This document shows, in pieces, positions 1,633-20,255 of a stretch of DNA of 21,631 nucleotides; positions within the stretch are counted from its first letter, which is position 1, and each line of letters starts with the position of its first letter. Source of the stretch: a virus; the IMG/VR virus record IMGVR_UViG_3300043470_000435, positions 1 to 21,631 of that record. One strand, 5' to 3'. The position numbers and the translations under genes were made by a program. Below the pieces are notes generated by a model. The model was given only the letters and a program-made list of their open reading frames with translations, searched no databases and was not told the DNA's origin.

Positions 1633-2973
1633 TTAGGCCTTCTTAAGAAGTACGTGGCGGTTAGCACCACGAACACAAAGAGCGATTTCAGATAGGTAGT
1701 TGAACTGAACCAAGTCTTTGGTGTCGTTCGATGCTCCCATAAATGAACCAGTCAACCAGTGGTGCATCTCGCGGCTTACACCGTTAGTTGCTTTGTAGTT
1801 GATTTCCAATGAAGGATTGCGGTCGCCCGACTTGGGGTCAACTACAGTAGCCATTGGGATAGCAACTCCAGCGAAGTTAGCGTTAGCCAACAACGTGGGG
1901 TCGTTCAGAAGCTTCCAATCGTGCTTGTGGAAGGTATACCCACCACGTCCGAATGATTTAAAGCCAAGCTTGATAGCCATATCAGCACTGTTACTGAATG
2001 CACCGAATTGCGTAGCAACTCCAGCAGTCAATGAGTTACCTACTCCCTTAGCGACTAAGTCGTCAAGCAATAGGTCCTGAGTGCGGTCAACGTAAAGGGC
2101 GTATTCAGAAGAAGCGCCTTGCTTGTCAAGCTCCTTGATGATAAGGTCAAGGTCAGATAGCTCAGTGATGTAACCGTTGGTAACCAAACCACGATTCTCA
2201 ATGGCGGCGAAGTAACCTTCAGAACCGTCGATTGATACGTTGCCGGTGTTGGTAACCTTCTGGCCCAACAACATCATCATCTCACGCTTGTCGAGGAAAC
2301 GCTGACGAGTGTCGGCCTCACCTTTCATAAACCAGCGGTAGTCGCCATTGCCTAGGTCAATCCATCCAAGGTTCGTAGCTTGAGAGCCAGTCACTTTGAA
2401 GATTTCCTTAACAATCATATATGGGTTGGTACGCTTAACCACGTTAGACTCGAGGTACTCGGTCGGTTGGTCAGTTCCCTGTCCGAACAAGTTACCGATA
2501 ATCGGAAGCTCGTAAGTACCAGCAACGATTGCGGTAAGGTTAGCGTCCAATAGGTTAGCAACGGTGAAGCTAGTAGTGCCGGTGATGGCAGTAACGATAG
2601 CACGCTCCTTGCCGCCCAATAGAACGACGTCATTCAAGCGAACAACAACAGCTTGTCCTCCGAGGGCGATAACCATCGTTTTTCCAGCAGTTGTGTCAGA
2701 AGCAAGAACAACCTTTTGGTTTTGGTGGAGGCGAACCTCTTCCCACCACTGAACTTGGTCAGCAGTACCTGCGCTCTTAACGGCTCCTACCATCTGTAGG
2801 AATCCTGTGATACCCTGAGCTCCGAAAGCCTTTACAAGGGCGTCGCGGTTGTCGGGTTTGTTGATTTCGTTAAAGTAGTCACCTAGGGCAACGTATTTAG
2901 CGGGGTCAAGACGCTTTACAGCGTTAGCTCCAGTGAAAAAAGTTCCAGCGGTAGCTGATGTCATATTTGCCAT
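1633..2973 (-). CDS. major capsid protein (HK97-fold type, putative)
   Basis: The 446-residue product is the likely main shell subunit of the head. Its size, its place right after an acidic scaffold-like gene and its strong terminator all fit. The N-terminal arm is rich in Ala/Thr/Gly, followed by a helix-rich region with DALVKAFGAQGITGFLQMVG near residues 43-62 and a VQWWEEVRLHQ motif near residue 73. Residues ~95-150 look like an inserted beta domain (VVVRLNDVVLLGGKERAIV). The C-terminal part contains GFKSFGRGGYTFHKHDW, HHWLTGSF and NYLSEIALCVRGANRHVLL. This pattern recalls capsid proteins of Crassvirales-like and uncultured aquatic Bacteroidota phages; that is recollection, not a search. 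There is no separate protease gene nearby and no obvious N-terminal delta domain, so head maturation may not involve cleavage. It starts at ATG 2973, 27 nt after the scaffold stop, without an SD site, and is probably co-transcribed with the scaffold. Confidence 0.78.
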   Translation of the reverse strand: MANMTSATAGTFFTGANAVKRLDPAKYVALGDYFNEINKPDNRDALVKAFGAQGITGFLQMVGAVKSAGTADQVQWWEEVRLHQNQKVVLASDTTAGKTMVIALGGQAVVVRLNDVVLLGGKERAIVTAITGTTSFTVANLLDANLTAIVAGTYELPIIGNLFGQGTDQPTEYLESNVVKRTNPYMIVKEIFKVTGSQATNLGWIDLGNGDYRWFMKGEADTRQRFLDKREMMMLLGQKVTNTGNVSIDGSEGYFAAIENRGLVTNGYITELSDLDLIIKELDKQGASSEYALYVDRTQDLLLDDLVAKGVGNSLTAGVATQFGAFSNSADMAIKLGFKSFGRGGYTFHKHDWKLLNDPTLLANANFAGVAIPMATVVDPKSGDRNPSLEINYKATNGVSREMHHWLTGSFMGASNDTKDLVQFNYLSEIALCVRGANRHVLLKKA

Positions 2974-3000: not shown

Positions 3001-4173
3001 TTAGAATCTAAATCTCATCATTGAGTCAGACTCTCCGATGATTTGGCGAAGCTGCTCCTCTATGTTGCCCCCTGGCTGTACGTTACCTACGTTAGGTGTA
3101 TTCACCTTCACGTTTGCTGCGGTTTCCACAACCCGTCGTTGTCCATCGCTCATACCTTGCTGATAAACGGCCTTGACAATTTCGTCAATGTTATCAACTA
3201 CGGTTCTGTGCATATTGAACGTCTCGTGGTTCCAGTTGCCATCGCGGTCTACGTACTGGTCAAAGTAGCTCTCTAGATTAGCGTTTTTGGTTTTGAGTGA
3301 TTCACGATACCGGTCACCTAGTCCGAAAGTAAAGGTCTTGTCTCCGGAGAGTTCAAAATCAATACCGTCAAGCGCATCGGCTTCCTGTCTCATAGTATTC
3401 ACCCACTGCTCGTCAACAAACGATTCAGCCTTCTGCTCCTTCTCAATGGCCCTTTCGACCGGTTTGAGATAGTTGCTTCGTAGCACATCAATTTGCTTTC
3501 TTGCGCTACCTGCGTCGATTTTTAGCTGAAGGGTAGCCATCTTCTGCTCTCTCTCGTCTAAGAATTCACTGTCGGTCTTGTATTTCGCCGATACAAGCAT
3601 TTCAATGTCATCTCTTGACAAGTCGGGAAAGTCGTTCTGCATCTGGAGCTTCACCACCGACAAATCGTCCATTTCAGACGGGTTGATGGATTGATATAGG
3701 AACCAATCCTGTGGGTCGCGGCCAGTTTCTTGAACAAACCTCAGAATAGGCTCAAGCCTTTCATCAATCGTCGCTGGTTGTTCTAAACGTGCGAGGATGC
3801 TATCCAAGTCAAGACCTACCTGCTCTTGCAGATAAGAATTGACGAACTGGTTAACCTCCTCGTCCGTGAGTTCGTCGTTGGATGACTGTACGTCCTCCGT
3901 GTCCTGCTGGCGGTATACGTACCTGTTGTCGTCGACCTGCTCGGTTACATCTTCTAAGGATGTCTCCTGGGTCTCCGTTACTTCAGGTACGCTGGGCTCA
4001 GCGAAAGAACTTTCGTTGCTATTTTCGGTGGCAACGTCACCGTTTTCGTTATCAAACTCGACGATAGTCGGTTCGAACTGTGGGTGGTCCTGTGAAGGCT
4101 CTGCGGGTTGGTCAACAATGTTGAGCCCCATATCCTTCACTAAGTCCTCTAGGGATGAGATTCCATCTGCCAT
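3001..4173 (-). CDS. putative head scaffolding protein
   Basis: The protein has 390 residues. The first ~115 are strongly acidic and low complexity (runs of Asp, Glu, Ser, Thr, Gln), as in many phage scaffold N-termini. The middle (about 115-260) is helical and charged, with NPSEMDDLSVVKLQMQNDF and coiled-coil-like EREQKMATLQLKIDAGSAR. The C-terminus is Gln/Asn/Gly-rich (NVGNVQPGGNIEEQLRQ) and ends in a small basic tail, MRFRF; scaffolds usually bind the capsid protein through a short basic C-terminal helix. It lies directly before the major capsid gene, the classical scaffold position. No protease signature is visible. It starts at ATG 4173, about 24 nt after a TAATTTTG box, making it the first gene of the head operon. 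The role is inferred from composition and position. Confidence 0.6.
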   Translation of the reverse strand: MADGISSLEDLVKDMGLNIVDQPAEPSQDHPQFEPTIVEFDNENGDVATENSNESSFAEPSVPEVTETQETSLEDVTEQVDDNRYVYRQQDTEDVQSSNDELTDEEVNQFVNSYLQEQVGLDLDSILARLEQPATIDERLEPILRFVQETGRDPQDWFLYQSINPSEMDDLSVVKLQMQNDFPDLSRDDIEMLVSAKYKTDSEFLDEREQKMATLQLKIDAGSARKQIDVLRSNYLKPVERAIEKEQKAESFVDEQWVNTMRQEADALDGIDFELSGDKTFTFGLGDRYRESLKTKNANLESYFDQYVDRDGNWNHETFNMHRTVVDNIDEIVKAVYQQGMSDGQRRVVETAANVKVNTPNVGNVQPGGNIEEQLRQIIGESDSMMRFRF

Positions 4174-4197: not shown

Positions 4198-4205
4198 CAA
4201 AATTA
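4198..4205 (-). promoter_or_regulatory. promoter of the scaffold-capsid unit, -7 box TAATTTTG
   Basis: The minus strand reads TAATTTTG, matching TAnnTTTG, 24 nt before the scaffold ATG at 4173. The expected -33 position reads CTTTTA, a weak element. It is arranged back to back with the plus-strand promoter at 4228-4259, and the two upstream elements nearly touch. Confidence 0.6.
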
Positions 4206-4227
4206 TCTCTACTATTTAGCGTAAAAG

Positions 4228-4259
4228 TTTGCACAATCGAAAACTAATAGATACTTTTG
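4228..4259 (+). promoter_or_regulatory. promoter of the plus-strand moron, TTTG-N20-TACTTTTG
   Basis: The plus strand has TTTG at 4228-4231, a 20-nt spacer, and TACTTTTG at 4252-4259. This is the only promoter in the window with both Bacteroidota elements (-33 TTTG and -7 TAnnTTTG) at standard spacing. The ATG follows 18 nt later. It looks readable by the unmodified host sigma factor. Confidence 0.8.
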
Positions 4260-4277
4260 GGTAAATAATTAAATCTA

Positions 4278-4598
4278 ATGAATATGAAAAACACTCTTTT
4301 TATCGCCTTAGTAGCCCTGTCCACTTCTGTTTTTGCTCAAGAAGCCCCGTCGTTCCTAAAAGAATTCAACTACACCGTAGAGACTTGCTTAAGCTCTGAA
4401 GGTATTGAGTTTGAATACTTTGAGGTGAAAGACGAGCAGTACAAAGAACTCAAGAATGTAATCAACAAACTAAACCGTCGTCGCTTTGTTCGGGTGGATA
4501 AGTCTGGGATGCTTATCACTAAGCGTTACGTGGACCAATGGACCGTTATGACCTTCAGCGGGTTTGGGTTCAAACGAATCAGTGTATTCCAAGAATAA
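4278..4598 (+). CDS. small exported protein of unknown function, moron gene
   Basis: This is the only plus-strand gene in the window. The 106-residue product starts with a clear signal peptide: a Lys-containing n-region, hydrophobic LFIALVALSTSV, and a flavobacterial-style FAQ cleavage site, predicted to release a mature protein of about 85 residues that begins EAPSF. The mature part mixes acidic (FEYFEVKDEQYKEL) and basic (NKLNRRRFVRVDK) stretches, has one Cys and shows no membrane helix or known motif. It has its own two-element promoter and a hairpin terminator just past the stop. An independently expressed gene facing against the surrounding structural genes is the definition of a phage moron. 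A periplasmic or secreted role such as superinfection exclusion or host-envelope change is inference. ATG 4284 is an equally good start and would leave a more standard signal peptide. Confidence 0.85.
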   Translation: MNMKNTLFIALVALSTSVFAQEAPSFLKEFNYTVETCLSSEGIEFEYFEVKDEQYKELKNVINKLNRRRFVRVDKSGMLITKRYVDQWTVMTFSGFGFKRISVFQE

Positions 4599-4600
4599 GA

Positions 4601-4630
4601 AAGGGGGCAATAGCCCCCTTCTTTGTTTTA
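4601..4630. terminator. bidirectional terminator between convergent genes
   Basis: An eight-pair stem (AAGGGGGC with GCCCCCTT, loop AATA) has a T-rich tract on its plus-strand side (CTTTGTTTT) and, read on the minus strand, TTCTTATTCTT. It begins 2 nt after the stop of the plus-strand gene and about 14 nt past the stop of the 96-aa minus-strand gene, so it can insulate both. Confidence 0.8.
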
Positions 4631-4643
4631 CAGCCTAACTGTA

Positions 4644-4934
4644 TTACTTCTTAGGCTTTCTGTATTCAGCCGTTGAGATACCTTGAGTTCCTCCTTCTAC
4701 CTTCTTGTAGAACGCAGGTACTGCCATAGCCTTAGTGTACTGCTCAGGATTAGCCTCCATACGCTTTCTCTGGTCAATTTCATTTTGACGACGAGTAGAG
4801 TTAGCCTTTTCTTGCTGCTCCTCACGCTTCTTCTGCTTGTTTAATTCGTAAGCAGAAACCTGCTTCTTAGCGAGGTCTTTATCTTTTTTCTTGGCATCAA
4901 TGGGACCGCCCATTTCGTATTTCCTAGCTTTCAT
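4644..4934 (-). CDS. small highly charged protein, unknown function (96 aa)
   Basis: The 96-residue product is very rich in Lys, Glu, Gln and Arg. An N-terminal KARKYEMGGPID motif leads into a probable single long helix of about residues 14-60 (KKKDKDLAKKQVSAYELNK and on), and it ends in Gly/Lys-rich sequence (YRKPKK). There is no Cys, signal peptide or membrane segment. I do not recognise a named family. Short proteins with a similar KYExGG start occur near structural genes in other phages, which is recollection only. It is preceded by its own TATATTTG box at 4952-4959 and followed by the bidirectional terminator, so it can be expressed alone as well as by read-through. Nucleic acid or capsid binding would fit its charge but is not shown. 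Confidence 0.75.
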   Translation of the reverse strand: MKARKYEMGGPIDAKKKDKDLAKKQVSAYELNKQKKREEQQEKANSTRRQNEIDQRKRMEANPEQYTKAMAVPAFYKKVEGGTQGISTAEYRKPKK

Positions 4935-4971: not shown

Positions 4972-5256
4972 TCACCATTTTTCGCGGTTAGCCCAATACG
5001 CCGCGCTCATCTTACCCTTGGCGATATTCTTAGCGTGACGTGCCTTAAAGCTGGCACGCTTCTTAGCACGTGCAGCCGTTGGGTTGCTCTCGGTGACCGT
5101 ATCGGCACCCTGCTCTCCGAAGCGTATAAGCTTTGTCTTGTTACCATCCTTGGCTAGGACGATATGCGACTTCTTAGGATTCGATGGTGTGCTCTTGGGC
5201 TTATTAACGCCGGCTAGGCCGTGCTTCTTAATAAGGTTCTTAACTCTTTCTTCCAT
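4972..5256 (-). CDS. small very basic conserved phage protein (94 aa)
   Basis: The protein has 94 residues. It starts with a short helix (VKNLIKKHGLAGVNKPK), then a small beta region (SHIVLAKDGNKTKLIRFGEQG), and ends in the basic block KRASFKARHAKNIAKGKMSA followed by an aromatic tail (AYWANREKW). I recognise this C-terminal block as common in small proteins of marine and aquatic tailed phages; its function is unknown to me, and I leave the domain number open. The charge suggests nucleic acid binding or packaging with DNA. The ATG at 5256 overlaps the TGA of the preceding gene (TGATG), a stop-start coupling signal, and this decides the start against GTG 5259, one codon earlier. Confidence 0.85.
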   Translation of the reverse strand: MEERVKNLIKKHGLAGVNKPKSTPSNPKKSHIVLAKDGNKTKLIRFGEQGADTVTESNPTAARAKKRASFKARHAKNIAKGKMSAAYWANREKW

Positions 5257-5618
5257 CACTGCTCAAATAATACGAAGAATACAAATCTGCCCCATAAATA
5301 TATAGCGACTCCAGTACGCCACTGGTCGTTTACCTTATCAACGGCAGCCTTAGGCTCTAAAAGGGCTTTGCGTAAGGTCTCTGTGGTTCTGATGTTCTCA
5401 GTAGCAAGAGAGTCGGCAACAGACTTCATACCACGATAGTCTACGCTTAAAGAGTCAATCTCTTTCTTTAGCCTGACAAACTTGCTGTTCATCGCCGCTG
5501 CTTGAGACAACTTAAGCACGACTACCGTATCACTCCCCTCCACCCGTTGAATCGGGTAGGATTGCGAGTACGTCAAATGGCACAGCAGTAGGCTGCACAT
5601 TAATAGCAACGATTTCAT
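5256..5618 (-). CDS. putative outer-membrane-side spanin (o-spanin or unimolecular spanin)
   Basis: The 120-residue product starts with a signal sequence, MKSLLLMCSLLLCHLTYSQ, that has two Cys in the hydrophobic core and a flavobacterial YSQ end. A charged, coiled-coil-like region follows (about residues 38-88, e.g. FVRLKKEIDSLSVDYRG), and then a hydrophobic C-terminus (about 103-120, GVAIYLWGRFVFFVLFEQ). Its first 89 nt lie inside the end of the upstream gene in another frame, the arrangement of Rz/Rz1 spanin pairs. Signal/Cys end plus coil plus C-terminal hydrophobic segment also matches unimolecular spanins such as T1 gp11. Neither Cys sits in a canonical lipobox, which is a weakness. If the call is right, it joins inner and outer membranes at the last step of lysis. 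It could instead be an ordinary exported protein. Confidence 0.5.
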   Translation of the reverse strand: MKSLLLMCSLLLCHLTYSQSYPIQRVEGSDTVVVLKLSQAAAMNSKFVRLKKEIDSLSVDYRGMKSVADSLATENIRTTETLRKALLEPKAAVDKVNDQWRTGVAIYLWGRFVFFVLFEQ

Positions 5619-5886
5619 CTTGCATTATTTTAACTTGTTCAATAAGGGCTACTTTCTCTTCCTCTAAGGTTGTGATGGTGGCCTTCATTTCTTTTACTTC
5701 AGCAACAATTAGATTGTCTGCATTCCTTGATACAGATGCAGCTTTTTGCATTGTCTTGTTAGACTTCTCAATCATTAGGTCAATCTCGCTGACCTCTACC
5801 ATCTTCGGCTTTTGAGCATTTAAAATCCCCACAACAATTAAAACGATTAGCAAAACGATTGCTGCCTTGATGGTATTGCTTTTCAT
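5530..5886 (-). CDS. putative inner-membrane spanin (Rz-like) with coiled coil
   Basis: The protein has 118 residues. An N-terminal membrane helix at about residues 7-24 (IKAAIVLLIVLIVVGIL) has only a few residues before it, so the rest should face the periplasm. A long coiled coil follows at about residues 30-95 (e.g. VKEMKATITTLEEEKVALIE), and the tail is Pro/Gly-rich. This is the layout of Rz-type i-spanins, and the next gene, whose product has a signal peptide, begins within its last 30 codons in a different frame, as with Rz/Rz1. The ATG at 5886 overlaps the stop of the previous gene (ATGA). There is no direct sequence identity to a named Rz family that I can state; the call rests on architecture and context. 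An alternative is a structural coiled-coil membrane protein. Confidence 0.5.
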   Translation of the reverse strand: MKSNTIKAAIVLLIVLIVVGILNAQKPKMVEVSEIDLMIEKSNKTMQKAASVSRNADNLIVAEVKEMKATITTLEEEKVALIEQVKIMQDEIVAINVQPTAVPFDVLAILPDSTGGGE

Positions 5887-6134
5887 CGTGTTTGAATTAA
5901 CATTTCGTTTTTAGCGCTTGTGTAGGCCAATGCTGAATCTAACTTCCTTACGTGCTCTGTGTACTTCTCTACCTTAACCTCAAGCTCGCCCACTCTTGTA
6001 TGACAACGCTCATCGGTTGTAGAGTTGCTCATCTTCTGGTCAACGTATAGATATCCTACGGCTGCAAGTGCAATAAACGCAATGGCTGCGGTAGGGTTCT
6101 TTTGGAACTGCTCGAAGTTAACAGGCATTTTCAT
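5883..6134 (-). CDS. small membrane-anchored coiled-coil protein (83 aa), probable lysis cluster member
   Basis: The 83-residue product has a short polar N-terminus (MKMPVNFEQFQKNP), one membrane helix at about residues 14-31 (TAAIAFIALAAVGYLYV), a single Cys at about residue 44, and a C-terminal helical region (VGELEVKVEKYTEHVRKLDS) that may form a coiled coil. It is joined by ATGA overlaps to both the holin-like gene before it and the Rz-like gene after it. It could be an i-spanin, an antiholin-like partner or a further membrane protein of the lysis cluster; the sequence does not decide. I recall similar short proteins beside holin-like genes in Bacteroidota phages, but could not verify this. 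Translation is probably coupled to the holin-like gene. Confidence 0.7.
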   Translation of the reverse strand: MKMPVNFEQFQKNPTAAIAFIALAAVGYLYVDQKMSNSTTDERCHTRVGELEVKVEKYTEHVRKLDSALAYTSAKNEMLIQTR

Positions 6135-6349
6135 TTTTTAGAGAACTTTTCTATTGCTGTTCCGAAGAACATAGCGATGGTAATGTATTCAACGGCTTCA
6201 ACAAGCTCTTTGCTTGGTGCTATATCCTGATGAGAGAAGCTATTAGCTATCAGGGTTCCGAACAGCACTAATGCTCCTAAGATGCCAATTACTCTCTTAG
6301 ACGACACTTCGTCGCCTACTCCAACTAGTTTAGTTACCCACTCTTTCAT
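6131..6349 (-). CDS. putative holin, two membrane segments (72 aa)
   Basis: The protein has 72 residues when started at ATG 6349. It is predicted to have two membrane segments, about residues 20-36 (VIGILGALVLFGTLIANSF) and 50-65 (VEYITIAMFFGTAIEKF), with a charged Lys-rich end (KFSKK). Size, two short helices and position at the head of a membrane-protein cluster fit a class II-type holin. A longer reading from ATG 6394 would add 15 residues, but those codons are the terminator hairpin and the -7 box, so I prefer 6349. The promoter box ends only 5 nt before this ATG, so the message may be almost leaderless. Its stop overlaps the next start (ATGA). The holin role is inferred from topology; no endolysin gene is visible in the window to support it. 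Confidence 0.6.
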   Translation of the reverse strand: MKEWVTKLVGVGDEVSSKRVIGILGALVLFGTLIANSFSHQDIAPSKELVEAVEYITIAMFFGTAIEKFSKK

Positions 6350-6354
6350 AAATA

Positions 6355-6362
6355 CAAAAGTA
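6355..6362 (-). promoter_or_regulatory. promoter of the lysis-type cluster, -7 box TACTTTTG
   Basis: The minus strand reads TACTTTTG, followed by TATTT and then the ATG at 6349. The usual few bases between a Bacteroidota -7 box and the start point would put the transcript start at or within a base or two of the ATG. It lies directly after the terminator at 6368-6392. No -33 element is seen. Confidence 0.65.
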
Positions 6363-6367
6363 TGACA

Positions 6368-6392
6368 AAAAAGAAGGCCCCACGAGGGGGCC
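6368..6392 (-). terminator. intrinsic terminator after the 89-aa gene
   Basis: On the minus strand GGCCCC pairs with GGGGCC around a CTCGT loop, followed by TTCTTTTTTG. It lies about 31 nt past the stop of the 89-aa coiled-coil gene and 6 nt before the promoter of the holin-like gene. Confidence 0.8.
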
Positions 6393-6423
6393 ATACTACA
6401 CTTTAAGGGTGTTATTTTACTCT

Positions 6424-12485: not shown

Positions 12486-15400
12486 TTACTTGTTTTCTAA
12501 CTTGTTTACTCGTTCTGTTAATTCTTGTACTGCCTTCAGCAAAATTACGCTTAGGCGAGAGTAGTTGACACCATCTGGCCTACCCTCATTATCATATTTT
12601 ACTACCTCTGGGAATAGCTCGGCTACGTCCTCAGCGATAAGACCAATCTCTTCTTCTTTGTTCCCAATCTTATTGTAGGATACAGCATCAAGTTTCTCTA
12701 CCTTCTGTGATACGCTAGGTATAGACTTTACGTTTTCCTTGTATCGAATAGATGATTGCTCGGTAAATGTTCCACCAATAGTCAAGTTCTGATTATGGTC
12801 AAGCTGCATTGCGACAACGCTGTGCTGTGCTGTTCCTGCCTTACTTGTGAACCAATAGAAACTGTGGTTTTCGGTTGCTACTCCTTTACCGGAATAGAAA
12901 CGTATGTCATTACCAAATGAGGCAATGAACGCATCATAGTCAGGAGTGTCCTCCATACCGATGGTAAGGGAGTCGTAGTTTGCCGGACCACCCACCTTAA
13001 ATGCAACAGTATCAGAGGATACGTTTCCTAAGTTTACAACAACGGCGCCACTTAGTGTACCTCCTGATAGAGGTAAATAAGAACCAGTAATATAACCCTG
13101 ACCTGTGACAAACTCTTCTGTGGCAAGACCTTCGAGTGCAATACTATTACCGTTTGAAATGCTTAAAGTGATAGATGGTTTATCCCAAGTTAATTGCTGG
13201 GCGTCATTATCAGTATCGTAATCAGTCCACGAGGCGGTAACGGTACCTCCGTCTCCCTGAGTGAGGGTAAGTGTCTTGGTAGTAGTTCCCGTTACGGTAG
13301 CAGAAGAAATCCTGTCGTTGTAGGCCGTGTTCCAGTTTGATACGTTAGTAGATGTAAAATCTCTAGAATCCCAAAGTTGATACTTGTTGTTTCCATCAGA
13401 CCAACCGCCAGTATAGAGTCTATTCGTGGTGTTGTCAAGACCAAAAAATACAGCAAAATCGTTGGATATGTGAAACGCCATAAATGCGTCATTCCCTTCG
13501 GCAGAGTAAATCTGCAATGAGTGAGCACTCGATGTTTCAGTTCCGATGTCTCCCGACGACTGGAATTTCGTAGCCTCTGGCCACGACCCTGGTGATTGCG
13601 TTGAGCCTCTTACTATATAATTAGCCCCGGCGTGGTTACCCCATCCAAATGCAGTATTCCAGTTAGAGGAGTTATTAGCAAATGTATCTGAAGTCCATAT
13701 TTGCTTTGTTACCCAAGAAGAACTATCCACATTTGTGTGGACATACATCGCGCCATAATATGTTACTTCTAATGCAAAATTTCCAGTACTACCACCAGTA
13801 TCGTGAGACACCCAAACTTGTCCACTGTGACCAACATAATTTCTAGTATATGTACCAGATGCTAAATTATTTCCAAATCCAGTTGCATCACCAACATTTG
13901 TTGTTGTACCTAGTGTACCTCTGGATAAAGGATATCTAGCGTCTGACTCTGTCTCCGTGTAGTATCTGTCATCGTGATTGTGAGCAGGTAAGGATGTTAA
14001 TGCGTATTCTCCAATGTTTTCAGAATCTACTACCGTCTTCCAAGAGCTCCAGCCAGCATTAGGATACAAGCCAAGACGATATTGCATAGAGTTTCCACCA
14101 TACTGCTCACTGTAAGGGAAATATAATTCCGCAGACGCTCCATCGTTTGGATATGTGTGTACACGGACAACACTTCCATAACTTTGATATCCTTCATTAT
14201 TGCTGACAAAACTAACTTGCAAACCCTGCTGAAAGTCTCGCCCATTAGTTGAGGAAGACCAAACGTAACTACCGAGACTTTTAAGGAGGTTTGAGTTGCC
14301 AGATGAATCAGCATACAATACGGACTGAGAACCTATGTTGGCTGTCGTGATAGCATCGGTAATCCCATATCCGGCTATTGTGGTCGGTTTGGACGATACG
14401 TTGGCGAATGAAATGCCGGTAATATAACCCTGTGATTGCACAAAGGTCTCAGTCGCCAGGCCCTCAAGGGTAACGCTGTTTCCGTTAGAGATGGCTATAG
14501 AACTTGTAGCCTTAGTCCAAGTAAGTGTCTGCGAATCAGTCTCCGATGTAATGTAGCGACCATCAAGGTCTACAGTTACAGTACCTAAGTCAACTTGTGT
14601 AAGCGTTAAAACACCGTTAGACGTGTTAAATGATGCAGACCTAATAGAGTCATTAACCGCATCATTCCAGTTACTGATGTTCGTAGCTGTAATGCTCTTA
14701 ACGTGAGAAGGAACGGTTGGGTCGGTCTCAGTGTATGACTCAAGATAGCGACCATCAAGGTCTACCGTTACGGTGCCTGTATCTTGCTGAGTAAGAGTAA
14801 GGACGCCAGTGGTAGTACTAAATGATGCGCTGTTAATCTTATCGTTGTAAGCTACATCCCAAGCACCTCGGTTGTATCCATCAATTTCCGTTTCTCCAGC
14901 AAATAAACTGTCTATCTCAGACTCGGTATAATATATATCGTTATGGTTGTGAGCAGGTAGCGAAGTAAGGAAGTTCGGGGTCCAGTTCTTCCATAGGCCG
15001 TCGGAATCTCTACGTATAAGCTGTCCCGCAGATACTCCATTGATGAGCACATCGTGAAGCTCATTGAGTTCGAAGCCATTCTGTACGCTAACAAAAATCT
15101 CTCCGTTGTTTGCGTTTTTACGAGTAACAACTCCAATATAAACAAGGTGCGCTGGAGCTACAGGTTTGTTTGTGAGTCCAAAGATTAAAGCTCCATCTAC
15201 GCCTAACCAAACAGCATCACCTGCTTCAGCGGAAGATGTATTTAATCCATCAATAAGACCCTCGGTAATTACGAAAAACTTACCATTTACTGCGGCAGAA
15301 GCGGCGGCTAGACCTATGGTCTTAGAAGACATAGCTTCAGATACGTTTGAGGCTTTACCTACAACCATATTTGTGCCGTCTGCCCCAGTAACATATAACG

Positions 15401-15827
15401 CTTGCCCTTTTGTAATCGCCACACCGGCCTTTACTTCGTGCTGTACTTTAGATACATAACCAGCACTTGTAACTGTGGCGTTAACCCAGGCGCTACCACT
15501 CCACTGTAATACCTGCCCAGTGGCCGCACTAGTAATGGTTACATCATTAAGCGCATCAATGGATGATGACGGGGTTAGGAAGTTCGGCGTGAAGTTATGC
15601 CATACGGGTACGGTATCCCCCTGCCGGAGGCCGTAGCGTAGCATTTGGTCGCTAGACGGAGAGGTGATGATTACATCCGAAAGCCCATCGAGGGGTAGTG
15701 AACCGACACTAATAGTGCCCCAATATGCAACACCTGAGCCGTCGGTGGACAACACCTGTCCGTTCGTTCCATCAACCATCGGAAGGGTGTACTCCGTGTT
15801 GACATTAATTTGAGATAAAAACTTCAT
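12486..15827 (-). CDS. large tail fibre protein with C-terminal Peptidase_S74 chaperone (1113 aa)
   Basis: The N-terminus (MKFLSQINVNTEYTLP, then DGTNGQVLSTDGSGVAYWG) is a start I associate with Bacteroidota and aquatic phage fibres, and is probably the virion-attachment end. It carries L-x-D-V-x-IT repeats, and a globular domain at about residues 115-240 (AGDAVWLGVDGALIFGL; HLVYIGVVTRKNANNG). Three copies of a S-A-x-F/V ... LTLTQ-x-D-x-GTVT module follow at about 335-365, 395-425 and 840-865, two of them running into DLDGRY. Knob-like modules end at WSSWKTVVDSENIG (about 600) and YQLWDSRDF (about 820). The last ~90 residues form a Peptidase_S74 chaperone, SSIRYKENV at about 1025 then EEIGLIAEDVAELFPEVV. 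The Ser-x4-Lys pair is kept, but the usual Asp after Ser is Ser here. The ATG at 15827 follows a terminator and one or two TAnnTTTG boxes, so this gene opens a fibre operon. Confidence 0.9.
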   Translation of the reverse strand: MKFLSQINVNTEYTLPMVDGTNGQVLSTDGSGVAYWGTISVGSLPLDGLSDVIITSPSSDQMLRYGLRQGDTVPVWHNFTPNFLTPSSSIDALNDVTITSAATGQVLQWSGSAWVNATVTSAGYVSKVQHEVKAGVAITKGQALYVTGADGTNMVVGKASNVSEAMSSKTIGLAAASAAVNGKFFVITEGLIDGLNTSSAEAGDAVWLGVDGALIFGLTNKPVAPAHLVYIGVVTRKNANNGEIFVSVQNGFELNELHDVLINGVSAGQLIRRDSDGLWKNWTPNFLTSLPAHNHNDIYYTESEIDSLFAGETEIDGYNRGAWDVAYNDKINSASFSTTTGVLTLTQQDTGTVTVDLDGRYLESYTETDPTVPSHVKSITATNISNWNDAVNDSIRSASFNTSNGVLTLTQVDLGTVTVDLDGRYITSETDSQTLTWTKATSSIAISNGNSVTLEGLATETFVQSQGYITGISFANVSSKPTTIAGYGITDAITTANIGSQSVLYADSSGNSNLLKSLGSYVWSSSTNGRDFQQGLQVSFVSNNEGYQSYGSVVRVHTYPNDGASAELYFPYSEQYGGNSMQYRLGLYPNAGWSSWKTVVDSENIGEYALTSLPAHNHDDRYYTETESDARYPLSRGTLGTTTNVGDATGFGNNLASGTYTRNYVGHSGQVWVSHDTGGSTGNFALEVTYYGAMYVHTNVDSSSWVTKQIWTSDTFANNSSNWNTAFGWGNHAGANYIVRGSTQSPGSWPEATKFQSSGDIGTETSSAHSLQIYSAEGNDAFMAFHISNDFAVFFGLDNTTNRLYTGGWSDGNNKYQLWDSRDFTSTNVSNWNTAYNDRISSATVTGTTTKTLTLTQGDGGTVTASWTDYDTDNDAQQLTWDKPSITLSISNGNSIALEGLATEEFVTGQGYITGSYLPLSGGTLSGAVVVNLGNVSSDTVAFKVGGPANYDSLTIGMEDTPDYDAFIASFGNDIRFYSGKGVATENHSFYWFTSKAGTAQHSVVAMQLDHNQNLTIGGTFTEQSSIRYKENVKSIPSVSQKVEKLDAVSYNKIGNKEEEIGLIAEDVAELFPEVVKYDNEGRPDGVNYSRLSVILLKAVQELTERVNKLENK

Positions 15828-15834
15828 AGTTTAC

Positions 15835-15861
15835 CAAACTTATACAGCATAAGCAAAAGTA
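15835..15861 (-). promoter_or_regulatory. promoter(s) of the fibre operon, TACTTTTG and TAAGTTTG
   Basis: Two minus-strand boxes match TAnnTTTG: TACTTTTG at 15854-15861 and TAAGTTTG at 15835-15842. The first is the better placed: a TTG at 15880-15882 lies 18 nt upstream of it, inside the loop region of the preceding terminator, and its leader would be about 20 nt. The second would leave almost no leader. Confidence 0.6.
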
Positions 15862-15893
15862 CAAAATAAAAGAGGGGGCCAATGCCCCCCCCC
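15862..15893 (-). terminator. intrinsic terminator after the 385-aa gene
   Basis: On the minus strand GGGGGC pairs with GCCCCC around a four-base loop (15880-15883), followed by TCTTTTATTTTG. A run of nine C on the plus strand (15885-15893) is one arm. It separates the baseplate-type genes from the fibre operon. Confidence 0.8.
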
Positions 15894-20220: not shown

Positions 20221-20247
20221 ACCTATTGTTTGTCCCCAGTTTATATG

Positions 20248-20255
20248 CAAATATA
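20248..20255 (-). promoter_or_regulatory. portal promoter, -7 box TATATTTG in a repeated extended block
   Basis: The minus strand reads TATATTTG 27 nt before the portal ATG. The surrounding block 20239-20262 matches 648-670 except for one extra base. At the -33 distance only GTTAGG is seen, a partial match to TTG. No terminator is seen between the TerL stop and this promoter. Confidence 0.7.

Follow-up and report, generated by a model that had tools for sequence, protein, structure and literature searches.

Organization of the locus

The window, that is the whole 21.6-kb virus record analysed here, encodes a terminase, a portal and a major capsid protein that match PHROG head-and-packaging families. 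Its capsid protein is about 35% identical to those of the cultured phages elemo (Flavobacterium), phi38:1 and Calle (Cellulophaga) and Panino (Maribacter). Every sizeable gene lies on the minus strand except one of 106 codons, which is divergent from the head operon and tail-to-tail with the lysis-side genes (Table 1), as an earlier note made from the sequence alone had described. This gene is real, judging by its relatives (among them proteins 87%, 74% and 60% identical) and by dN/dS values of 0.09–0.19 within family A; most relatives start instead at a second in-frame ATG, which lies at 4284 in the window.

Table 1. Features of the locus. Coordinates are those of the window unless a related locus (L number) is named.
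Feature	Position	Strand	Basis or remark
Major capsid protein	1633..2973	-	PHROG 13704, virion structural protein; anchor of the locus comparison
Divergent gene upstream of the capsid gene	3001..4173	-	Constant flank; probable scaffold/structural protein
Bacteroidota sigma-A-type promoter (predicted)	4228..4259	+	-33 TTTG, N20, -7 TACTTTTG
Gene for exported 106-aa protein	4278..4598	+	ORF list, relatives, dN/dS within family A
Signal peptide codons, residues 1-20 (predicted)	4278..4337	+	Cleavage before Gln21 (Q-rule)
Mature domain, part swapped between related phages	4338..4595	+	Swap boundaries; AlphaFold2 model
Bidirectional hairpin terminator between convergent genes (predicted)	4601..4620	+	Terminator-like score
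Convergent gene, starts MKARKYEMGG	4644..4934	-	N-terminus constant, remainder variable; swapped alongside the exported gene in part of the clade
Conserved gene	4972..5259	-	PHROG 7595 (function unknown); far flank of the variable block
171-aa HNH-like gene	L014 3296-3811; L032 3488-4003; L033 1546-2061		
171-aa HNH-like gene	L038 710-1225; L045 264-779; L079 1268-1783		

The clear signal peptide and the export proposed in the earlier note agree with the prediction of MNMKNTLFIALVALSTSVFA followed by Q, in which cleavage would fall between SVFA and QEAP. This is the Q-rule of Bacteroidota, with Gln at +1 after signal peptidase cleavage (PMC10653852). The predicted mature protein accordingly comprises residues 21–106 with Gln at +1, instead of the residues 22–106 given previously. 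Gln occupies +1 in 28 of the 37 non-redundant exported proteins found at this locus (see below); a lipobox-like motif is present in L171 only, and most of the others end their signal peptide in a signal peptidase I site. The protein does not resemble a spanin (o-spanin/Rz1), having a signal peptidase I/Q-rule site, no lipobox and a compact mixed alpha/beta model.

With regard to the flanking genes, the counterparts of the probable scaffold in phi38:1 and elemo are annotated merely as 'structural protein'. The convergent gene opens with a motif of the type MK..K.Y..GG (4905–4934), after which a different sequence follows. Numerous small genes that lie immediately upstream of the scaffold and are otherwise unrelated share this type of start, with equivalents in L017, L024, L025, L026, L030, L043, L070 and L085; it may act at the N-terminus as a signal for targeting or processing, for instance of capsid cargo. 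The spanin-like/coiled-coil genes at 5256–6134 are missing or unrecognisable in L004, L005, L012, L013 and L072 and 49–80% identical in L014 and L015, so that the lysis-side genes are mosaic too. A gene of 171 amino acids with the look of an HNH-type endonuclease (CPSC...CKSC, SLDRIDS) recurs at varying places in the region and is possibly mobile.

The listed TTG start of the portal gene (20221–20250) is probably too far upstream. In relatives the aligned part of the portal gene contains a TAA, and some relatives match only from residue 11–13 onwards; recoding of this internal TAA was considered and rejected, as the window portal probably starts at an internal ATG and the TAA would then lie upstream of the real gene.

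Promoter and terminator

The putative promoter of the exported gene reads TTTGCACAATCGAAAACTAATAGATACTTTTG and agrees with the flavobacterial sigma-A consensus TAnnTTTG (PMC9723704). Exact matches to TTTG-N17-21-TANNTTTG number two in the window against 0.35 expected from shuffling, and the motif is kept in 7/7 relatives of the window clade as compared with 0.3% of shuffles. The description of this element as the best promoter in the window was therefore nearly right, there being one other exact match, TTTG-N19-TAnnTTTG at 15835–15865 on the minus strand, directly before the fibre gene at 12486–15827.

The hairpin that follows the gene is the top terminator-like site between 2000 and 8000. It scores on both strands and so probably also ends the opposite operon; the terminator ascribed to the gene is thus present, although it is common to the convergent gene and not exclusively its own. 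At the level of sequence the gene has, as would a moron, a promoter and a terminator that set it apart from the neighbouring operons.

Distribution among related phages

Using the capsid gene as anchor, we read the gene beside the scaffold in 161 distinct homologous head loci, almost all of which belong to metagenomic phages. At precisely this position 39 of the loci carry an opposed gene that has a signal peptide, giving 37 non-redundant proteins, and the comparison with related phages proposed in the earlier note therefore shows the cassette to be variably present, again as for a moron. The export signal appears to be tied to this spot, since only 4/103 other opposed ORFs in the same stretches are signal-peptide-like. 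When scaffolds were clustered at 70% identity, nine clusters always carried the exported gene, three were mixed and 62 were without it. A profile search placed family E at the same position even where scaffolds are only 36% identical; one distant family A relative (L109) sits elsewhere, upstream of the terminase.

In the cultured phages elemo, phi38:1, Panino and Calle_3 the portal is followed directly by the scaffold with no cassette, and phi13:2 has two opposed genes at the spot, both lacking a signal peptide. Close relatives of the window protein came from metagenomic phage contigs only, and a search of phage isolates for seven exported families found no carrier. A bacterial origin of the gene was also considered; scans of approximately 85,000 bacterial and archaeal species-representative genomes with families A and E found no relative.

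Constant heads and exchanged mature domains

BLASTP with everything beyond residue 19 sorts the 37 exported proteins into about 11 families. When each family was compared with every other by profile, the probabilities stayed below 4%, a comparison limited by the shallowness of the profiles; the grouping of family K probably rests in part on a constant stretch directly behind its signal peptide. Unrelated mature parts stand behind near-identical signal peptides: MKHLIMSLLLLTGVAA[KN]AQ is found in L122, L125 and L132, and the window leader STSVFAQEAP recurs in L072 ahead of an unrelated body.

Alignment of close relatives located the boundaries of these replacements. L132, L125 and L122, whose capsid proteins are 98–99% identical, have a sliding identity of 96–100% from position -110 to approximately codon 14, which then drops to about 35%. 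Identity among L174, L175 and L186 is mostly 90–100% to about codon 30, random for approximately 250 bases and >90% after the gene. The pairs L079/L084 and window/L072 show a like pattern, the former returning to >90% downstream, and between the window and L012 the promoter is kept and identity is lost at the gene start. Over the 26 kb compared between G012 and G019, which carry different alleles, the sole break is at this block.

In several clades the replaced tract also takes in the 3' part of the convergent gene, the N-terminus of which stays constant (MKARKY..GG in the window clade, MKEMYKSGG in the L132 clade); such clades have two tail-to-tail genes, each with a constant head and a variable tail. 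In family K the genes downstream of the exported gene stay constant. In the clade of L171–L176, L186, L079 and L084, with the gene on the minus strand beside the scaffold, the exported gene is the first of an opposed operon whose last gene encodes an N-acetylmuramoyl-L-alanine amidase; most members have a small conserved gene in the middle. The lysis enzyme of this clade therefore runs against the head operon.

With spot, orientation, promoter block and signal peptide unchanged around an exchanged mature domain, the locus is, on these alignments, a recombinational allele-swap site for an exported protein and not a one-off insertion. The term 'moron' used in the earlier note therefore holds insofar as the gene is self-contained, independently promoted and variably present, and fails insofar as it implies a single insertion into a slot that is in fact retained. 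That note had also stated that retention of the gene in one place with conserved structural linkage would count against a moron: the place is indeed kept, whereas the linkage is not conserved, because the allele swaps against a constant backbone. An ordinary moron, a neutral or weakly useful intergenic passenger whose pattern reflects general phage mosaicism, could be argued from the many genes of the region, including fibres and spanin-like genes, that are mosaic as well; it appears improbable to us given the elements kept while only the mature part changes, and given the purifying selection in all measurable pairs that is described next.

Exchange and selection

The exported proteins of L084 and L175 are nearly identical, their mature parts differing by a dS of only 0.08, as against a dS of 2.2 for their 51% identical scaffolds, and the two share a tract of 762 bases that ends at the gene start. 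L013 and L014 have the reverse pattern, with a dS of 1.84 for the mature part versus 0.13 for the scaffold. Judged by these values, some alleles have moved recently between phages with scaffolds only 51% identical.

In every computable pair dN/dS was 0.08–0.48, L015/L072 being saturated. Positive selection was rejected, omega being <0.5 wherever it could be computed. These ratios indicate that the alleles are functional and that their diversity arose by swapping long-standing alleles and not by hypermutation in recent times.

Predicted structure and similarity searches

AlphaFold2 predicts a beta-beta-alpha-beta4 arrangement for the window protein, with about 90 pLDDT over the mature part, from five aligned sequences and with a large model-to-model spread. 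The predicted family K protein has a beta-alpha-beta4 fold with nearly the same spacing of elements. The shared element order without sequence similarity allows for one old fold and is no proof of it. A further extension, which we consider doubtful, is a self/non-self locus of phages: a single ancient exported fold would have given rise to many alleles, recombining behind one constant signal peptide, and each would let the infected cell exclude a different set of competing phages.

The claim that the mature protein matches nothing recognisable stood up to profile and structure searches. Searches of Pfam, PHROGs, NCBIfam, PADLOC and PDB sequences gave no usable match for the exported proteins (the best PADLOC defence profile had an E value of 0.009 at 13.8 bits, not a meaningful match), and Rfam gave none. 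Matches to the family A model were weak only, the best E values with Foldseek being 0.04 in the PDB and 0.008 in BFVD and the best Z score with VIA-align against the PDB being 6.1; the family K model, for which VIA-align and BFVD only were used, was similarly weak (best Z 6.1, best E 0.006). DcrB, FABP, LppA and AFV1 ORF-99 were matched by both models and were set aside as below a trustworthy level.

Proposed function

The window gene is, on the above comparisons, one allele of an exchange locus in marine flavobacterial podovirus-like phages, and the swap pattern suggests that the protein serves competing phages as a weapon or a shield. We tentatively propose that the exported protein is an envelope or periplasmic factor that excludes competing related phages, acting in the manner of Spackle or Llp without being descended from them; this is a plausible reading, superinfection exclusion having been named among envelope effects in the earlier note, and one we favour without holding it to be probable. 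Recombination joins a constant head, consisting of promoter and Sec signal peptide, to mature domains of different kinds. The sequence speaks strongly for transcription by the normal sigma factor of the host, which would be independent of the phage late operons, and for export through Sec with release by signal peptidase I of a soluble Q-rule protein, which would be headed by pyroglutamate, into the periplasm or beyond. There the mature domain would block superinfection by binding a variable envelope partner, for which the receptor or entry machinery used by related competing phages is the likeliest candidate. As any one allele would exclude only part of the competitors, a diversity of alleles would be favoured.

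This proposal is supported by the fixed spot and orientation with swapped content, the precision of the swaps, horizontal movement, the export signal, the host-type promoter and the precedents of small exported exclusion proteins. Against it, searches by sequence, profile and fold matched the protein to no exclusion protein, and the window and L004/L005 have an identical exported protein although their fibres differ. In seven fibre regions compared for co-variation of receptor binding with the allele, the fibres proved highly mosaic. That the family K gene shares an operon with an endolysin-type amidase also speaks against exclusion and would point towards lysis.

We therefore weighed as a main rival a periplasmic lysis regulator, such as a T4 RI-like antiholin or a lysis-enzyme inhibitor, that sets the time of lysis. 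The window gene adjoins lysis-type genes, in family K the opposed operon of the exported gene also contains a small gene and an Amidase_2 endolysin, and T4 RI is likewise small with a cleavable signal peptide, according to a title cited in PMC12642591. However, the mature domain swaps while the neighbouring amidase remains constant in L174/L175/L186; between the window and L012 the exported protein is replaced and the putative holin (6131–6394) is 89% identical; and the window and L004/L005 have the protein in common but not the genes at 5256–6134. Pairing of the exported allele with lysis genes was looked for and none was seen in the compared loci. A role in lysis timing appears quite unlikely to us on this evidence.

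Export, the host-type promoter and allele diversity would also fit a protein that modifies the host envelope or inhibits a target in the host's periplasm or on its surface, be it a protease, a transporter, a toxin or an antiphage sensor; the diversity would then be driven by hosts and not by phages. Phages of Porphyromonas gingivalis also encode Q-rule proteins of unknown function (PMC10367356). Families A and E are nevertheless without a relative in the bacterial and archaeal genomes scanned, no enzyme or inhibitor family was matched and no lysogenic context was seen, and we regard a host-directed function as unlikely, if worth keeping in mind.

Envelope-altering proteins exported by phages are known as single cases, whereas here one fixed locus holds many exchangeable alleles. 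These follow a constant export tag, and near-identical genomes of wild marine phages offer clean natural swaps of them; the constant head provides a simple rule for finding further such proteins. Should the locus determine exclusion specificity, it would supply ready allele pairs for testing how virulent phages that infect abundant marine flavobacteria compete within one host.

Comparison with known systems

Llp of phage T5 is a small exported superinfection-exclusion lipoprotein of a virulent phage. Llp and similar masking proteins differ from the present proteins in being lipoproteins, L171 alone having a lipobox-like motif here. Spackle (gp61.3) of T4 is a small phage protein with a cleaved export signal that is made early in infection, acts in the periplasm and is an alpha-helical bundle (PMC7677548). 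The window protein is likewise small with a predicted export signal; it differs in its beta-beta-alpha-beta4 model, in having no match in PHROGs, Pfam or PDB sequences, and in that no tail lysozyme target was identified for it.

The T4 antiholin RI is also small and periplasmic (as predicted here) with a cleavable signal peptide, and lies near lysis functions; by contrast, no co-variation of the exported proteins with holin-like or endolysin genes was seen in the compared loci, and no sequence relation to RI was found. For the Q-rule proteins of P. gingivalis phages, the available text of PMC10367356 describes no swap of variable bodies behind a constant head at a fixed opposed locus. Classical phage morons have in common with this cassette their own promoter and terminator and their variable presence; they differ in that this cassette retains its slot, promoter and signal peptide and swaps alleles within that slot.
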